This document shows, one piece after another, positions 4,800 through 12,660 of a stretch of DNA of 64,000 nucleotides. The stretch spans positions 1-64,000 of the forward strand of contig NZ_PIZV01000004.1 of the NCBI RefSeq assembly GCF_002835665.1, in the 5' to 3' direction. Origin of the DNA: Chryseobacterium sp. PMSZPI. Lineage in GTDB: Bacteria; Bacteroidota; Bacteroidia; Flavobacteriales; Weeksellaceae. Position 1 is the first letter of the stretch. Each line of letters opens with the position of its first letter. Under the pieces are notes generated by a model. The model was not told the origin of the DNA. It searched no databases and was given only the letters and a program-made list of their open reading frames with translations. Position numbers and translations under genes: made by a program.

Positions 4800-5156
4800 T
4801 TACAATGTTAAATTCTTTTGAAAGCCAGAAATCATTCTCTGTAGTTCTGTGATTTTATTTTCTATTATTTCAATTTTAGAGTTTTCAAGGTAATCTCTGT
4901 TACCCGAAATAATAATTTGTGTTTGTAATTCATAAAGAGAACCAAGACTTATTTCCAAAAAACGATTAAAATCCTTATTTGAACTTCTGCTTGAACCTTC
5001 TGCAATATTTGAAGCCACAGAAACTGAACATCTTCTAATTTGAGATTTAAGTCCAAATTCTTCATTTTTTGGAAAACTATCTGTAATAACATAAATTTCA
5101 TCAGCTAGTTCAATGGAAAGTTTCCAGATGTTAAGATGTTTGAAGTTATGTTTCAT
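4800..5156 (-). CDS. Four-helix-bundle protein (23S rRNA intervening-sequence protein family)
   Basis: A 118-residue protein of the TIGR02436 family, recognised by LNIWKLSIELADEIY at the start, FPKNEEFGLKSQIRR, SVASNIAEGSSR and FLEISLGSLYELQTQ. The fold is a four-helix bundle known from proteins encoded inside 23S rRNA intervening sequences. It is related to the accessory protein Avd of diversity-generating retroelements; its own biochemical function is unknown. The gene sits between fadA and fadE in the direction of transcription. It is tightly bracketed by a 19-bp inverted repeat (4780-4798 and 5169-5187), which suggests it arrived as a unit. No reverse transcriptase or variable repeat is nearby, so a retroelement is not supported. 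Confidence 0.9.
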   Translation of the reverse strand: MKHNFKHLNIWKLSIELADEIYVITDSFPKNEEFGLKSQIRRCSVSVASNIAEGSSRSSNKDFNRFLEISLGSLYELQTQIIISGNRDYLENSKIEIIENKITELQRMISGFQKNLTL

Positions 5157-6407: not shown

Positions 6408-6480
6408 GCCTCGTAGAGGTAAACCGTTTATAGATCTATTGTTTTGCAATTGGTGGAGCTCCGTAGGAGCGACCTGTTAA
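6408..6480 (-). repeat. REP-like hairpin pair downstream of the RAYT gene
   Basis: Two small GTA-loop hairpins: GCCTC-GTA-GAGG(T) at 6408-6420 and GCTCC-GTA-GGAGC at 6458-6470. The second is followed by GACCTGTTAA (6471-6480). This is the inverted copy of TTAACAGGTC at 6947-6956 on the other side of the transposase gene. The transposase stop codon (6477-6479) lies inside this repeat. Confidence 0.8.
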
Positions 6481-6941
6481 TCTTCAATCCATTCAAATAA
6501 ATATTTTGAATCAAATTCTATTTCAAATTTTGACATAAAATCCAGATATTCTTCTCTAAAAGTTTTCTTTTTATGATGTTCTTCCTGGTTTAAAATATAT
6601 TTTACAACCGAGTCAACACTGCTTTTAGAATAAGAAAAAGCTCCATAACCTTCCTGCCAATTGAACTTTCCATTTATCCATCTTTTTTCATTGATAAATT
6701 TTGATGATCCCGCTTTAATATCTCTTACTAAATCTGAAACAGATATTGTAGGATTCATGCTTACAAGAATATGAACATGGTCAGGCATTGCAAAAACAGC
6801 GAATAATTTTTGATTTCTATTGGAAACAATGCCTGTAATCAATTTATGTAATTCTTCTCTGTTTTCTTTTGAAATCAGATTTTGTCTTCCTTTGACTGCG
6901 AAAACAATTTGAATATAAATTTGTGTATAGGTATTGGCCAT
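6477..6941 (-). CDS. REP-associated tyrosine transposase (IS200-like, Y1 family)
   Basis: A 154-residue HUH/Y1 transposase of the IS200 type. The metal-binding HUH motif is in MPDHVHILVSM (about residues 50-60). The catalytic-tyrosine region is VVKYILNQEEHHKK (tyrosine about 116). Such enzymes cut and join single-stranded DNA at hairpins. Here the gene is flanked on both sides by paired 5-bp hairpins with GTA/TAC loops and a conserved TTAACAG(G/T)TC segment next to each, the organisation of REP-associated transposases (RAYTs). It lies in the same direction as, and between, fadN and fadA. No passenger gene or tnpB is present. The reading frame is intact, so it may still be active. Confidence 0.9.
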   Translation of the reverse strand: MANTYTQIYIQIVFAVKGRQNLISKENREELHKLITGIVSNRNQKLFAVFAMPDHVHILVSMNPTISVSDLVRDIKAGSSKFINEKRWINGKFNWQEGYGAFSYSKSSVDSVVKYILNQEEHHKKKTFREEYLDFMSKFEIEFDSKYLFEWIED

Positions 6942-6946
6942 AAAAA

Positions 6947-7018
6947 TTAACAGGTCGCCTCTACGAGGCTCTGATTTTTATATTATTCATTTCTATTAAC
7001 AGTTCGCTCCTACGGAGC
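6947..7018 (+). repeat. REP-like hairpin pair upstream of the RAYT gene
   Basis: Two direct copies of one unit. TTAACAGGTC is followed by the hairpin GCCTC-TAC-GAGGC (6947-6969), and TTAACAGTTC by the hairpin GCTCC-TAC-GGAGC (6996-7018). They are inverted relative to the copies at 6408-6480. The stems differ but are compensated on both arms, which points to selection for structure. Confidence 0.8.
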
Positions 7019-7023
7019 TCCCT

Positions 7024-9469: not shown

Positions 9470-9925
9470 TTATTTTCTGTTATTGAGTAATTCATTAGCT
9501 ATTTTCATGACTTCGGCCATTACCTCTTTGAAGGTTTCCATTTTCTCCGGAGCAATCTTTTCCATCACCTTTTTATTAAAGTTGACAACGACTTCCTTTG
9601 ACATATTTCTGGAGTTTAACCCCTTATCCGTAAGCTTAATGATCACCTCTCTTTTATCGGTAGTGGTCTTTTCCTTATAGATATATCCGTTATCTTCCAG
9701 AAGTTTAATGATTCTTGTTAAAGATGTAGGTTCTATAGCCATCTTAGGTCCAAGATTAGTACTTCGGGTCCCTTCTTTGGGATCAATTTTAAGAAGGGTT
9801 AGAGCTTGTACAGCTGTAGAATCGTGTTCCTGAGCCAATTCTGTATACATTTTTGAAACAGCCAACCAGGTCTGTTTTAAAATTAAATCTACGTTTTCTA
9901 TTTTTTCCTTGTTATTATCCATCAT
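9470..9925 (-). CDS. MarR-family transcriptional regulator of the fad operon
   Basis: A winged-helix MarR regulator of about 151 residues, with the DNA-binding part around GPKMAIEPTSLTRIIKLLEDNGYI and the wing in TTDKREVIIKLTDKG. It is the first gene of the minus-strand operon carrying fadN, fadA and fadE, so it very likely represses beta-oxidation genes and responds to acyl-CoA or fatty acids. The ligand is inference. A 34-bp perfect palindrome (9952-9985) lies 27 bases upstream of the start and covers a TAAATTTG promoter element, which fits autorepression. An upstream TTG could add eight residues, but it would lie inside the promoter element, so I chose the ATG at 9925; the ATG at 9922 is equally possible. 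Confidence 0.88.
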   Translation of the reverse strand: MMDNNKEKIENVDLILKQTWLAVSKMYTELAQEHDSTAVQALTLLKIDPKEGTRSTNLGPKMAIEPTSLTRIIKLLEDNGYIYKEKTTTDKREVIIKLTDKGLNSRNMSKEVVVNFNKKVMEKIAPEKMETFKEVMAEVMKIANELLNNRK

Positions 9926-9946
9926 TGATGCGCAAATGGTTTTACC

Positions 9947-10087: not shown

Positions 10088-11011
10088 TTAATGAATGTTT
10101 TTAACGAAATTGATGATTTCTTCAAAAGATTCACATTGTTGTTTCGTGGAATCGTTAGTAATTATCCAAAATTTGTGTTGGAACTCAAAATGAAGGAAAG
10201 AAAGGTCTTTTGAGAAGTTTTTTTGAAGCAAAGAATACAACATTTCTTTGTAAACCTTCGGTGCTACAATATGTGGAGCTATAAAATTCTCGTTCATTTG
10301 AAATAAAGAAGCATTGGTGAGTTCTTCATGTTTCAGTAAAATATCTTCTACAATCCCGGCATGTAGTTGTGTAGCATTGATATACCATATTTTATCTGCA
10401 AACTCTTTAGCGAGTCTCCAGTCATGAGAAGAAAATAGAATAAGCTTATTTTGTTCTTTAGCCAGTTTTCTAAGAGTTTTAAGGATAATAATCTTATTTT
10501 TTTCATCCAAATGCGTTGTGGGTTCATCCAGAATAATAATGGGAGCATTTTGGGTTATAGCCCGTCCAATAAAAGCTTTTTGAAGATTTCCGTCTGAAAG
10601 ATTTTTAAGGAGGGTAGATTTGTATTGGATAAGATTCAATTCTTCAATAATATGGGAAACCTCTTCGCGATCTTCTTTTTTTAATTCAAAATAAAAAGGG
10701 TAATAGATATATTTTCCGAGCGAAATGAGATCTTCAACTGTATAATGCTGTGGAATGACTGATTTTGAAAAAACAATAGCAATATTCTCAGCGATTTCTT
10801 TTACAGAAAGCTTTTTTACATTTTTATCATTGATTAGAATTTCACCATCAAGCAAAGGAATCTGGTGGAGGATTGATTTAATCAGGGTGGTTTTTCCTAC
10901 ACCGTTATTGCCAATCAACAAACATACATCACCTAGTTTTAAATCTGCATTAGCATTTGAAATTAATGCTTTATTGTATCCGATATTAGCTTGTTTGATC
11001 TGTAGGTGCAT
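10088..11011 (-). CDS. ABC transporter ATP-binding protein, iron-complex/siderophore (FecE-type)
   Basis: The cytoplasmic ATPase of an importer for ferric siderophores, haem or cobalamin. Within 307 residues it shows Walker A (GNNGVGKTT, about 35), a Q-loop region, an ABC signature of the shape LSDGNLQKA (about 140), Walker B with the catalytic glutamate (IIILDEPTTHLD, about 165) and the switch histidine (FSSHDW, about 197). The last 65 residues form an extension beyond the normal ATPase core. Its partner is the FecCD-type permease at 11689-12660, transcribed in the same direction. The two are now separated by a GxxExxY gene and a repeat element. No substrate-binding protein is encoded next to them. 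Confidence 0.9.
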   Translation of the reverse strand: MHLQIKQANIGYNKALISNANADLKLGDVCLLIGNNGVGKTTLIKSILHQIPLLDGEILINDKNVKKLSVKEIAENIAIVFSKSVIPQHYTVEDLISLGKYIYYPFYFELKKEDREEVSHIIEELNLIQYKSTLLKNLSDGNLQKAFIGRAITQNAPIIILDEPTTHLDEKNKIIILKTLRKLAKEQNKLILFSSHDWRLAKEFADKIWYINATQLHAGIVEDILLKHEELTNASLFQMNENFIAPHIVAPKVYKEMLYSLLQKNFSKDLSFLHFEFQHKFWIITNDSTKQQCESFEEIINFVKNIH

Positions 11012-11083
11012 ATTTAAAATTGATTAAATGCAGGCGTAAATGCTTTGCAAAAGTACTGTTTTAAAAACAATGGACTTGGTTAA

Positions 11084-11461
11084 TTATAAATAATTAACGA
11101 CTCTTGTTACTCCATTTTTGAAAACATCAGATTGAAAATTAAGAAGTAGGCCTAGCTTACAATTTGTCATTTTTAAATAGGTTAAAAGCTGTGCTTTATG
11201 AATAGAATTTATATAATCAACAGTTTTTATTTCTAAAATTAGTTTATTTTCTACAATCATATCTAATCTGAAAGCATTTTCGATCTTTAAATCTTCATAT
11301 ATGATAGGGAGTAATTTTTGTTTTTCTACTAAAAATCCTGATCGGGTAAGTTCATAAAATATACATTCTTCATAAACGTGTTCAAATAAACCGGCTCCAA
11401 GCTTTTTATGAATTTTTAAGCCTGCATCAAAAACCACTCTTGATAATTCATTTTCTGTCAT
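11084..11461 (-). CDS. GxxExxY protein (PD-(D/E)XK nuclease-like)
   Basis: A 125-residue protein of the GxxExxY family, named after its conserved GLFEHVY motif (residues 24-30: G-x-x-E-x-x-Y). A nuclease-like core follows: FRLDMIVENKLILEIKTV around residues 65-85 has the D...ExK pattern of PD-(D/E)XK enzymes. The QLLTYLKMT segment is typical too. The function is unknown. The gene is preceded by a nested inverted-repeat element (11503-11676), and the two together split an iron-transporter operon, which suggests transfer as a unit. There is no obvious partner such as a methylase or antitoxin. Confidence 0.88.
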   Translation of the reverse strand: MTENELSRVVFDAGLKIHKKLGAGLFEHVYEECIFYELTRSGFLVEKQKLLPIIYEDLKIENAFRLDMIVENKLILEIKTVDYINSIHKAQLLTYLKMTNCKLGLLLNFQSDVFKNGVTRVVNYL

Positions 11462-11502
11462 TTATGTGTGTTTTAATATATAAATGTAATGAATTGTTGG
11501 AA

Positions 11503-11676
11503 AAACGCAAAGACGCAAAAGATTTATTATGTATTACGCATATTTTTAAGGCGCAAGAAAATCAAAGATTTTCAGTAAGGGGAATGGATAATTTTATGCG
11601 TTGCTAAATTTTATCTGAGATAAAATCCTTGCGCCCTAAAGCATGATATAGGTAAAAAACTTGCGTCTTTGCGTTT
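11503..11676. repeat. Nested inverted-repeat element upstream of the GxxExxY gene
   Basis: Outer arms: AAACGCAAAGACGCAA (11503-11518) and its exact reverse complement (11661-11676). Inner arms: GGCGCAAG (11550-11557) and CTTGCGCC (11628-11635). Two short hairpins lie inside: GAAAATC-AAA-GATTTTC (11557-11573) and ATTTTATC-TGA-GATAAAAT (11608-11626). The element encodes no protein and has the form of a miniature mobile or structured element. Confidence 0.85.
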
Positions 11677-11688
11677 ATCAACAAAAAA

Positions 11689-12660
11689 TCAAACCTTATT
11701 TTGCTTCAAAAGCATTCCTAGAATCACAGGGATTCCAAATACAGAACTTATTACATTCAGTGGGATTTGCGTTTTCTCTGCAATGACTGAGAAAAATAAC
11801 ATAATAAGCATTCCCAAAAACATATTCAGTATCCATTGTTGCCAAAGTTTGGATGGATTAAAGATCAATCTGCAGAAATGCGGAACAATAATTCCAATGA
11901 ATAAAATAGGCCCCAAAAATGCTGTGATAGAAGCCGAAAGTAGGGAAGAAGCTGCTATGATTAGAAGTTTTAAGTGCTTTAAATTAACTCCTAAACTTTG
12001 TGCATATGAAGTTCCCAGAGAATTCCCAATTAACGGTTTTATAGATTTGAAACAGAAAAATAATCCAATCAATACTAAAATAGATAATACATAAATCTGA
12101 TTCCTGGTGACCATATTATTGGCTCCGAAAGACCATAAAATATAGTTTTTCAGACTTTGATTCTCCGCATAAAATTGAAGTAGAGAAACAATAGCTCCTG
12201 CAAAAGCAGATACTAAAAATCCAAAAATAATGAGATACGATTTATCCTGAAACTTATTAGACATAGATAATAACACCAGCATCAGCAATAAGCTTCCTCC
12301 GATAGCCGATAAGCTTAAAAAACTATTTTGCAAAAATTCCGGAAGAGGGATATCGTGGGAAAAAAATATATAAAATGCCACTGATAGGCTGGCTACTGAA
12401 GTAATCCCCAATATATCCGGTCCGGCTAATGGATTTTGAAAATATTCCTGCATCAGAAAGCCTGAGGTTGGAATAGAAATGCCGGCTAATAACATTACCA
12501 ATACACGGTTGATACGGATTTCAGCAATCTGACTATGAGAAGTGTTTTGGAAAAAATCCTCAAAATTTAAACTTAAAAATCCTGTATTCAGATTGATCAT
12601 TGCGCTTACAATAATTGCAATCATTAATAATAAACACAGGATTTTAAATCTTTTTGACAT
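11689..12660 (-). CDS. FecCD-family ABC transporter permease (iron complex/siderophore)
   Basis: The inner-membrane channel subunit of a siderophore, haem or cobalamin importer. Its 323 residues contain about nine to ten hydrophobic segments, starting with a signal-anchor-like LLLMIAIIVSAMI. Family signatures are RINRVLVMLLAGISIPTSG, FQNPLAGPDILGI, SFGANNM, and GPILFIGIIVPHFCRLIF, the loop that contacts the ATPase. It is the first gene of the pair with the ATPase at 10088-11011. In related operons these two usually sit side by side; here 677 bases with another gene and a repeat separate them. The substrate is unknown. Confidence 0.92.
   Translation of the reverse strand: MSKRFKILCLLLMIAIIVSAMINLNTGFLSLNFEDFFQNTSHSQIAEIRINRVLVMLLAGISIPTSGFLMQEYFQNPLAGPDILGITSVASLSVAFYIFFSHDIPLPEFLQNSFLSLSAIGGSLLLMLVLLSMSNKFQDKSYLIIFGFLVSAFAGAIVSLLQFYAENQSLKNYILWSFGANNMVTRNQIYVLSILVLIGLFFCFKSIKPLIGNSLGTSYAQSLGVNLKHLKLLIIAASSLLSASITAFLGPILFIGIIVPHFCRLIFNPSKLWQQWILNMFLGMLIMLFFSVIAEKTQIPLNVISSVFGIPVILGMLLKQNKV

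Follow-up and report, generated by a model that had tools for sequence, protein, structure and literature searches.

A GxxExxY nuclease-like gene and its nested palindrome in Chryseobacterium: a gene–repeat association found across phyla

Genes of the GxxExxY (PDDEXK_3) family are specifically coupled to structured inverted repeats, and the available evidence strongly supports this coupling as a real and general feature. The association is strong both at one permease–ATPase site of the genus (a full palindrome at 36 of 36 sites with an intact or decayed gene versus 2 of 59 gene-free sites) and at loci elsewhere (94 of 135), and it holds more widely than the initial annotation of this DNA had claimed. 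On balance, gene and palindrome probably form one functional unit in which the nuclease acts on its own arrays, in the manner of RAYT/REPIN systems and with an unrelated enzyme. A broader proposition is that the GxxExxY proteins of different phyla each process their cognate palindromes and constitute a second, independently evolved RAYT-like class with a Cas4-like PD-(D/E)XK nuclease, clade-specific recognition of unit-array DNA, and long-lived gene-less palindromes as products; the case for it is evenly poised. If it is true, two different nucleases have separately given rise to a RAYT-like way of life. A family for which no described function was found thereby gains a specific DNA partner beside many of its genes, which opens the way to a direct test of binding and cleavage, and the dispersed palindromes of this genus and others gain a candidate enzyme.

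The window is the whole analysed stretch of 64,000 nucleotides from Chryseobacterium sp. PMSZPI (contig NZ_PIZV01000004.1, positions 1 to 64,000). Its GxxExxY open reading frame matches PF13366 (E 1.1e-37) and TIGR04256 (E 4.4e-39) and passes the curated cut-off of GxxExxY/PDDEXK_3 across its whole length. As first annotated, the gene and a nested inverted-repeat element lie between the permease and ATPase genes of an importer, which are 677 bases apart (Table 1). The palindrome spans about 11500-11679. Its arms retain most of their original description: the outer arms share an exact 16-nt core, AAACGCAAAGACGCAA (by reading), and the inner arms and two hairpins are present, while the full outer arms extend to 19 nt at 95% complementarity. 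The palindrome scores 43, and none of 1000 dinucleotide shuffles exceeds 32; when the whole 64 kb is scanned at 20-bp intervals, a segment over the palindrome ranks top but narrowly, with 38 versus 37 near 9881-9941. Between the gene stop and the ATPase gene, the right half of a second element is clear in relatives such as G018; the corresponding window segment aligns with a score of 58 versus 41 ± 5 for shuffles, the maximum of 500 shuffles also being 58. The 14-mer ACGCAAAGACGCAA was rejected as a family marker: with one mismatch allowed, the window's genome has four occurrences, two of them in the arms of the element described here, and the reversed control occurs once. The repeat family is defined by architecture and not by this string. 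A homing endonuclease or intron was likewise rejected because the element sits between intact permease and ATPase genes and interrupts neither.

Table 1. Coordinates of the GxxExxY locus and of a second small repeat-flanked gene in the window
Feature	Position	Strand	Details
GxxExxY (PDDEXK_3) nuclease-like gene	11084..11461	-	125 aa; D67, E77, K79, Q91, Y95 present
Permease, FecCD-type, upstream neighbour of GxxExxY gene	11689..12660	-	profile match
ABC importer ATPase (ABC_tran), downstream neighbour of GxxExxY gene	10088..11011	-	profile match
Outer arm, gene-proximal	11500..11518	.	19 nt
Outer arm, permease side	11661..11679	.	19 nt, 95% complementary to 11500-11518
Inner arm TTTAAGGCGCAAG	11545..11557	.	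13 nt
Inner arm CTTGCGCCCTAAA	11628..11640	.	13 nt, 92% complementary to 11545-11557
Internal hairpin GAAAATC-AAA-GATTTTC	11557..11573	.	by reading; similar in relatives
Internal hairpin ATTTTATCT-G-AGATAAAAT	11608..11626	.	by reading; similar in relatives
Possible degenerate right half of second element, gene stop to ATPase start	11012..11083	.	weak in window
Y1/IS200-type transposase gene, RAYT-like	6477-6941	-	within 6408-7021

The same site was located through ATPase orthologues in 95 of 98 same-genus genomes (G056, G063, and G090 lack a usable site), with a full palindrome defined as a profile match spanning at least 90 positions. At this site, 30 genomes have an intact GxxExxY gene, 6 have a decayed one, and in 59 the gene was not detected. 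All intact (30/30) and decayed (6/6) genes are accompanied by a full palindrome, which is also found in 2/59 gene-free genomes (Fisher p 4e-24); the site profile was derived from 16 elements that belong to 12 of these 95 genomes, so that those genomes are not independent of it, and related genomes are not independent of one another. Among the 59 gene-free genomes, in 4 of which the permease end was not found, 4 have a partial palindrome match and 53 have none; two sites carry a full element with no detectable gene. When the ATPase gene tree is considered, presence of gene or element changes 19 times versus 29.7 after shuffling (minimum 21), and presence of the intact gene alone changes 21 times versus 25.8 (minimum 20). 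These changes indicate repeated joint loss, or joint gain, of gene and palindrome.

The premise that the permease and ATPase genes normally adjoin does not always apply in the genus: in the 91 genomes measured, the gap is 8-115 bp in 13 and 430-530 bp in 20. A search for relatives with an uninterrupted operon was proposed in the initial annotation, and a nearly uninterrupted pair exists, with a gap of 8 bp in G088; other short gaps measure 43-57 bp (G046, G035, G064, and G008). In G036 and G081, the short gap resembles a scar left by the element. Short gaps could not be aligned at base level, and the site comparison found no target-site duplication. Two arrangements of the element occur. In G058 and G075 (L053), one palindrome encloses the gene, in the order left half, gene, right half; at the site of other genomes, a gene-less palindrome lies directly upstream, with tandem copies in some. 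By eye, the spacers of L043 and L047 contain an apparent gene start and an apparent end of the permease gene, and the permease 3′ end is duplicated in L061. The gap of L042, L049, and L053 also holds a hydrophobic reading frame of ~95-100 codons (by eye), which suggests that this intergenic site is a hotspot.

Beyond this site, inverted arrays were scored by aligning the 350 bp of 5′ flank to the reverse complement of the 350 bp of 3′ flank, a score of at least 30 being a hit. In a first set of 35 genus loci and 29 others of the phylum, z exceeds 4 in 26/64 (L088, with a broken frame, was dropped, and L082, in the wrong frame, counted as a miss); the maximum score among 63 distant control windows is 29, and thus 0/63 reach 30. 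In a set of named genomes, arrays flank 54/78 loci versus 0/67 control windows; L142 and L178 lack a 3′ flank, and the short frames taken from the match start at L148, L152, and L156 are still counted within the 54/78, L152 as a hit and the others as misses. Acidobacteriota and other named genomes yield 25/38 loci, or 24/33 minus five re-fetched ones, with 1/35 controls. Pooling of the loci outside the genus sample gives the 94/135 with arrays at this threshold, and 41/135 show none. Excluded from the 135 are L079 (same as L100), L082, L088, L148, L152, L156, L142, L178, L344, and the re-fetches L335-L338 and L342; also outside them are 14 hand-picked loci (L316-L329), some of which were used for the unit-type tree and arm-spacing analyses. 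If loci that share any same-side flank are clustered, arrays occur in some member of 46/68 clusters and in at least half of the members of 45/68. Window genes taken as a comparison reach 30 in 4/50 cases and z >4 in 2/50, both of the latter being small genes that themselves lie inside inverted repeats. The family is present in 93/98 genus genomes, 151/296 phylum genomes, and 46/119 genomes drawn from Acidobacteriota, the phylum to which the Pyrinomonadaceae genome G469 belongs.

The arms are arrays of short units of 8-12 nt (CGCAAAG, CACAGAG, CACAGAT, and variants), whose spacing peaks mainly at 8-12 nt and then at 20-22 and 30-31, whereas the far control shows only one distance. The 3′ arm begins a median of 10 bp past the stop codon, and a median of 33 bp separates the end of the 5′ arm from the start. 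The array test fails for the inherited gene group next to cutC because the palindrome there, which has the architecture of the window type, lies wholly upstream; an upstream palindrome with exact arms is found in 21/35 genus loci. Five of the eight plasmid-borne hits were examined: the Bernardetia gene has arrays, the Gemmatirosa copy has a broken frame and solo palindromes next to it, and the Sphingomonas, Fusobacteria, and Treponema plasmid genes show no clear pair of arms. The Sphingomonas plasmid gene (L332) is part of a fatty-acid synthesis operon, with fabD on one side and fabG on the other.

Repeat type follows protein clade. With arms classed as GAG, GAT, or AAG type and mapped on the GxxExxY protein tree, unit class changes 9 times versus 39.3 in 500 shuffles (minimum 32; n=98) and, without L100-L179, 7 times versus 17.3 (minimum 13; n=46). 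GAT is the type of the clade marked by GFLE[KR]VYEN both at loci of the home phylum and at L364 and L370 of the Acidobacteriota set, and paralogues within G330 differ in unit type (AAG in L316 and L318, GAT in L317 and L319). In 74/108 cases, the match between the two arms of a locus exceeds the best match among 30 other loci. The coupling of unit type and protein is partly co-inheritance; that non-coding arms are retained over such distances argues for a function.

Across 140 protein sequences, D67, K79, and Y95 are invariant (140/140), and Q91 and E77 occur in 138 and 137, respectively; we take the resulting D...ExK...QxxxY pattern to be the motif of the Cas4/lambda exonuclease branch. Median dN/dS, restricted to pairs with dS <1.5 (68 and 245 pairs), is 0.08 for the CutC-neighbour group and 0.076 for the window type, compared to 0.062 for the ATPase. 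The gene is under strong purifying selection, and its PD-(D/E)XK site is conserved. The confidently predicted structure (pLDDT 90.3, pTM 0.82) has Cas4 SSO0001 (E 2e-3, probability 0.99) and lambda exonuclease as its best Foldseek matches, which are weak, with none at E <= 0.001, and a Cas4b profile matches at E 1.5e-4. A PDB sequence search returned no relative up to E 1.

Most palindromes lie far from any GxxExxY gene. The strict form, AACGCAAAG-N124-154-CTTTGCGTT, occurs in 77/98 genus genomes with up to 22 copies, and its reversed control is found 0 times in each. The window's genome, which has six GxxExxY genes, holds 32 copies of a looser form, 2 of them next to one of these genes and 30 far away; in the sampled genus palindrome loci, a gene is present within 1.5 kb in 2/30 and absent in 28/30. 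The motif TTAACCGCAAAGNNCGCAAAG is present in 4/99 genomes of the order, with no gene nearby at 25/25 sites, and solo inverted arm pairs without a gene also exist for it (L222). The copy-number link was examined for one gene group in one genus, namely the CutC neighbours, which are detected by similarity in 43/98 genomes (one copy has a stop). Strict palindromes average 6.6 per genome with this group versus 2.3 without it, and independent contrasts with one linked copy removed give r=0.34 (p=8e-4, n=94); 11 genomes without the group still carry 5-11 palindromes.

These traits resemble those of RAYT/REPIN systems, namely (i) a small nuclease gene between two inverted repeats, the 3′ one often near the stop codon, (ii) dispersed gene-less palindromes and tandem clusters beside the gene, and (iii) a repeat type that follows the gene and a copy number that correlates with it. 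In PMC2817692, rayt genes are described as lying between two inverted REPs, often immediately ahead of the downstream REP, with 3′ ends sometimes built into REP arrays; RAYTs and REPs coevolve, and REP abundance correlates with rayt presence. REPIN clusters beside RAYTs and infrequent lateral transfer are reported in PMC3116915. Repeats on both flanks characterize the 94/135 loci outside the genus sample, and the window's second side is degenerate and weak. The systems also differ. The GxxExxY enzyme is a PD-(D/E)XK protein (it matches PF13366 only) and not Y1/HUH. REP palindromes, as given in PMC3733652, are 20-40 bp long and GTAG-ended, whereas GxxExxY arms are arrays of short units, and the GTAG/GTGG head is absent from the window-type element, which by inspection ends TTGTTGG...CGCAAAG. 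GxxExxY evolves slowly (dN/dS 0.08), in contrast to the rapid rayt evolution described in PMC2817692. With a different enzyme, the window system is not a RAYT, though it may work like one. Similarity to Cas4 and lambda exonuclease is limited to weak profile and fold matches, and the window protein has only 125 aa. Non-coding imperfect palindromes of ~130-200 bp in several copies per genome also recall MITEs and ERIC sequences, from which this system differs in that some of the palindromes have the gene of a candidate cognate enzyme within or next to them and target duplication was not found.

For GxxExxY/PDDEXK_3 (TIGR04256, PF13366), the literature matches listed, from a coverage without preprints and largely without subscription journals, describe neither a function nor an association with repeats. 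The family receives a passing mention in PMC8934634. The literature text gave no match for PDDEXK_3, TIGR04256, or unit-array strings, the listed matches on palindromic repeats include no GxxExxY work, and the available portion of PMC3733652 names no GxxExxY-type nuclease.

Recognition and cutting of the repeat by the GxxExxY protein are what we infer from these comparisons. A minimal PD-(D/E)XK protein resembling Cas4 and lambda exonuclease would bind the unit arrays of its own gene, either in duplex form or extruded into hairpins, and would nick or trim the DNA there. Rare repair of such breaks could then copy, delete, or tandemly amplify palindromes, and the gene itself would mostly stay put and be inherited.

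Alternatively, the arrays could be operator sites through which GxxExxY or a host DNA-binding protein controls expression of the operon-inserted gene, with no mobility or repeat processing. The position of the arrays near the gene, the spacing of their units at ~10 nt, and the inherited loci and purifying selection of most sampled genus genes agree with such a role, which by itself leaves the many gene-less palindromes and the link between their number and the gene unexplained; we consider it unlikely.

Spread of the palindromes by other enzymes (an IS200/Y1 RAYT or classical IS transposases), with GxxExxY as a passenger or exploiter, is rather unlikely, and it draws on the way in which recent copies travel. 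In the window's genome, 12 of the 14 solo copies examined have flanks in common that belong to a larger repeat, so a different enzyme may have spread them; these young palindromes, which ride in a ~330-bp repeat, were set aside as evidence of self-driven spread. In G570, 24 truncated gene copies are listed; 20 of 23 share at least 1.1 kb with L376, and three share 558-902 bp. Across the G570 copies (L374-L399 and L402-L407), the GxxExxY unit is repeated together with its carrier and shows several different internal gene deletions, and both arms are kept in those examined except L405. Their long common flanks resemble an insertion sequence, presumably an IS5-type element, and because the carrier explains them, a burst of the unit itself was rejected. 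One derivative, L403, starts at the left arm end, a junction that provides a single hint of cutting there. Y1 transposases occur in 87/98 genomes; their number is not correlated with that of palindromes (rho 0.14, p=0.17; means with versus without Y1 of 4.4 and 2.3, p=0.09), and IS200/Y1 was rejected as the spreader on this ground. Moreover, the Y1 gene in the window has its own, different inverted repeats, and the coupling of gene clade and unit type speaks against this reading.

Two further observations concern the larger repeats. The ~330-bp family of the window's genome (G000) encloses a 163-bp palindrome (e.g., L240:1441-1770) and has outer inverted ends that resemble GGATCAGGCGCAAAAGTTG by eye. 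Palindromes also form a tandem array with a period near 342 bp at G068:C16:53227-55781.

It is very unlikely that the repeats act as RNA, as a structured leader or stem around the GxxExxY message for RNA processing within operons. Array-bearing genes are co-oriented with both called neighbours in 81/100 cases versus 30/49 for window genes, and folding predicts a consensus structure. In RNA, G-U pairs should be tolerated, yet no strand bias is seen among mispairs, either in the arms (G-T 143 versus A-C 120, p=0.17) or in the palindrome sets (20 versus 19 and 30 versus 21), and the solo copies lie away from the gene. This symmetry favours, with limited power, selection on DNA rather than on the transcript. 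The repeats have no Rfam match at gathering score.

The initial annotation, which proposed a minimal mobile unit, is partly supported overall: the gene–repeat association, the nearly uninterrupted permease–ATPase pair in relatives, and the placement of the gene inside a palindrome (G058 and G075) stand, and active movement, for which the site comparison found no target-site duplication, is at most a possibility. Of the 35 genus genes sampled, 24 occupy one inherited locus and 5 another, and the two amplifications examined ride in larger repeats, which together count against an actively moving unit. L003 and L018 belong to one gene group and have no common flanks. Self-driven spread of the GxxExxY unit is possible. 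A conventional active minimal transposon is the least probable reading of all. In its favour are inverted repeats at the ends of a unit with a nuclease gene, derivatives that lack the gene, and a patchy distribution at the site (19 changes versus 29.7 shuffled); against it are the lack of any target-site duplication or alignable empty site found, the inherited loci of most sampled genus genes, and matches to the window protein, at E 1e-5, in just 8/72,556 plasmid and 0/50,697 phage records.

Other small genes of the window have comparable surroundings. The Y1 gene, 4 kb from the GxxExxY system, is flanked by the inverted repeats GGAGCTCCGTAGGAGCGACCTGTTAAT (6455-6481 and 6995-7021, 96%) and lies between thiolase and 3-hydroxyacyl-CoA dehydrogenase/hydratase genes. 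A 23S rRNA intervening-sequence protein gene (PF05635) at 4800-5156, between acyl-CoA dehydrogenase and thiolase genes, has inverted arrays of AAAGA-type units on its two sides (score 38, z 7). The window thus harbors three unrelated small repeat-flanked genes within about 7 kb, each between co-oriented genes.
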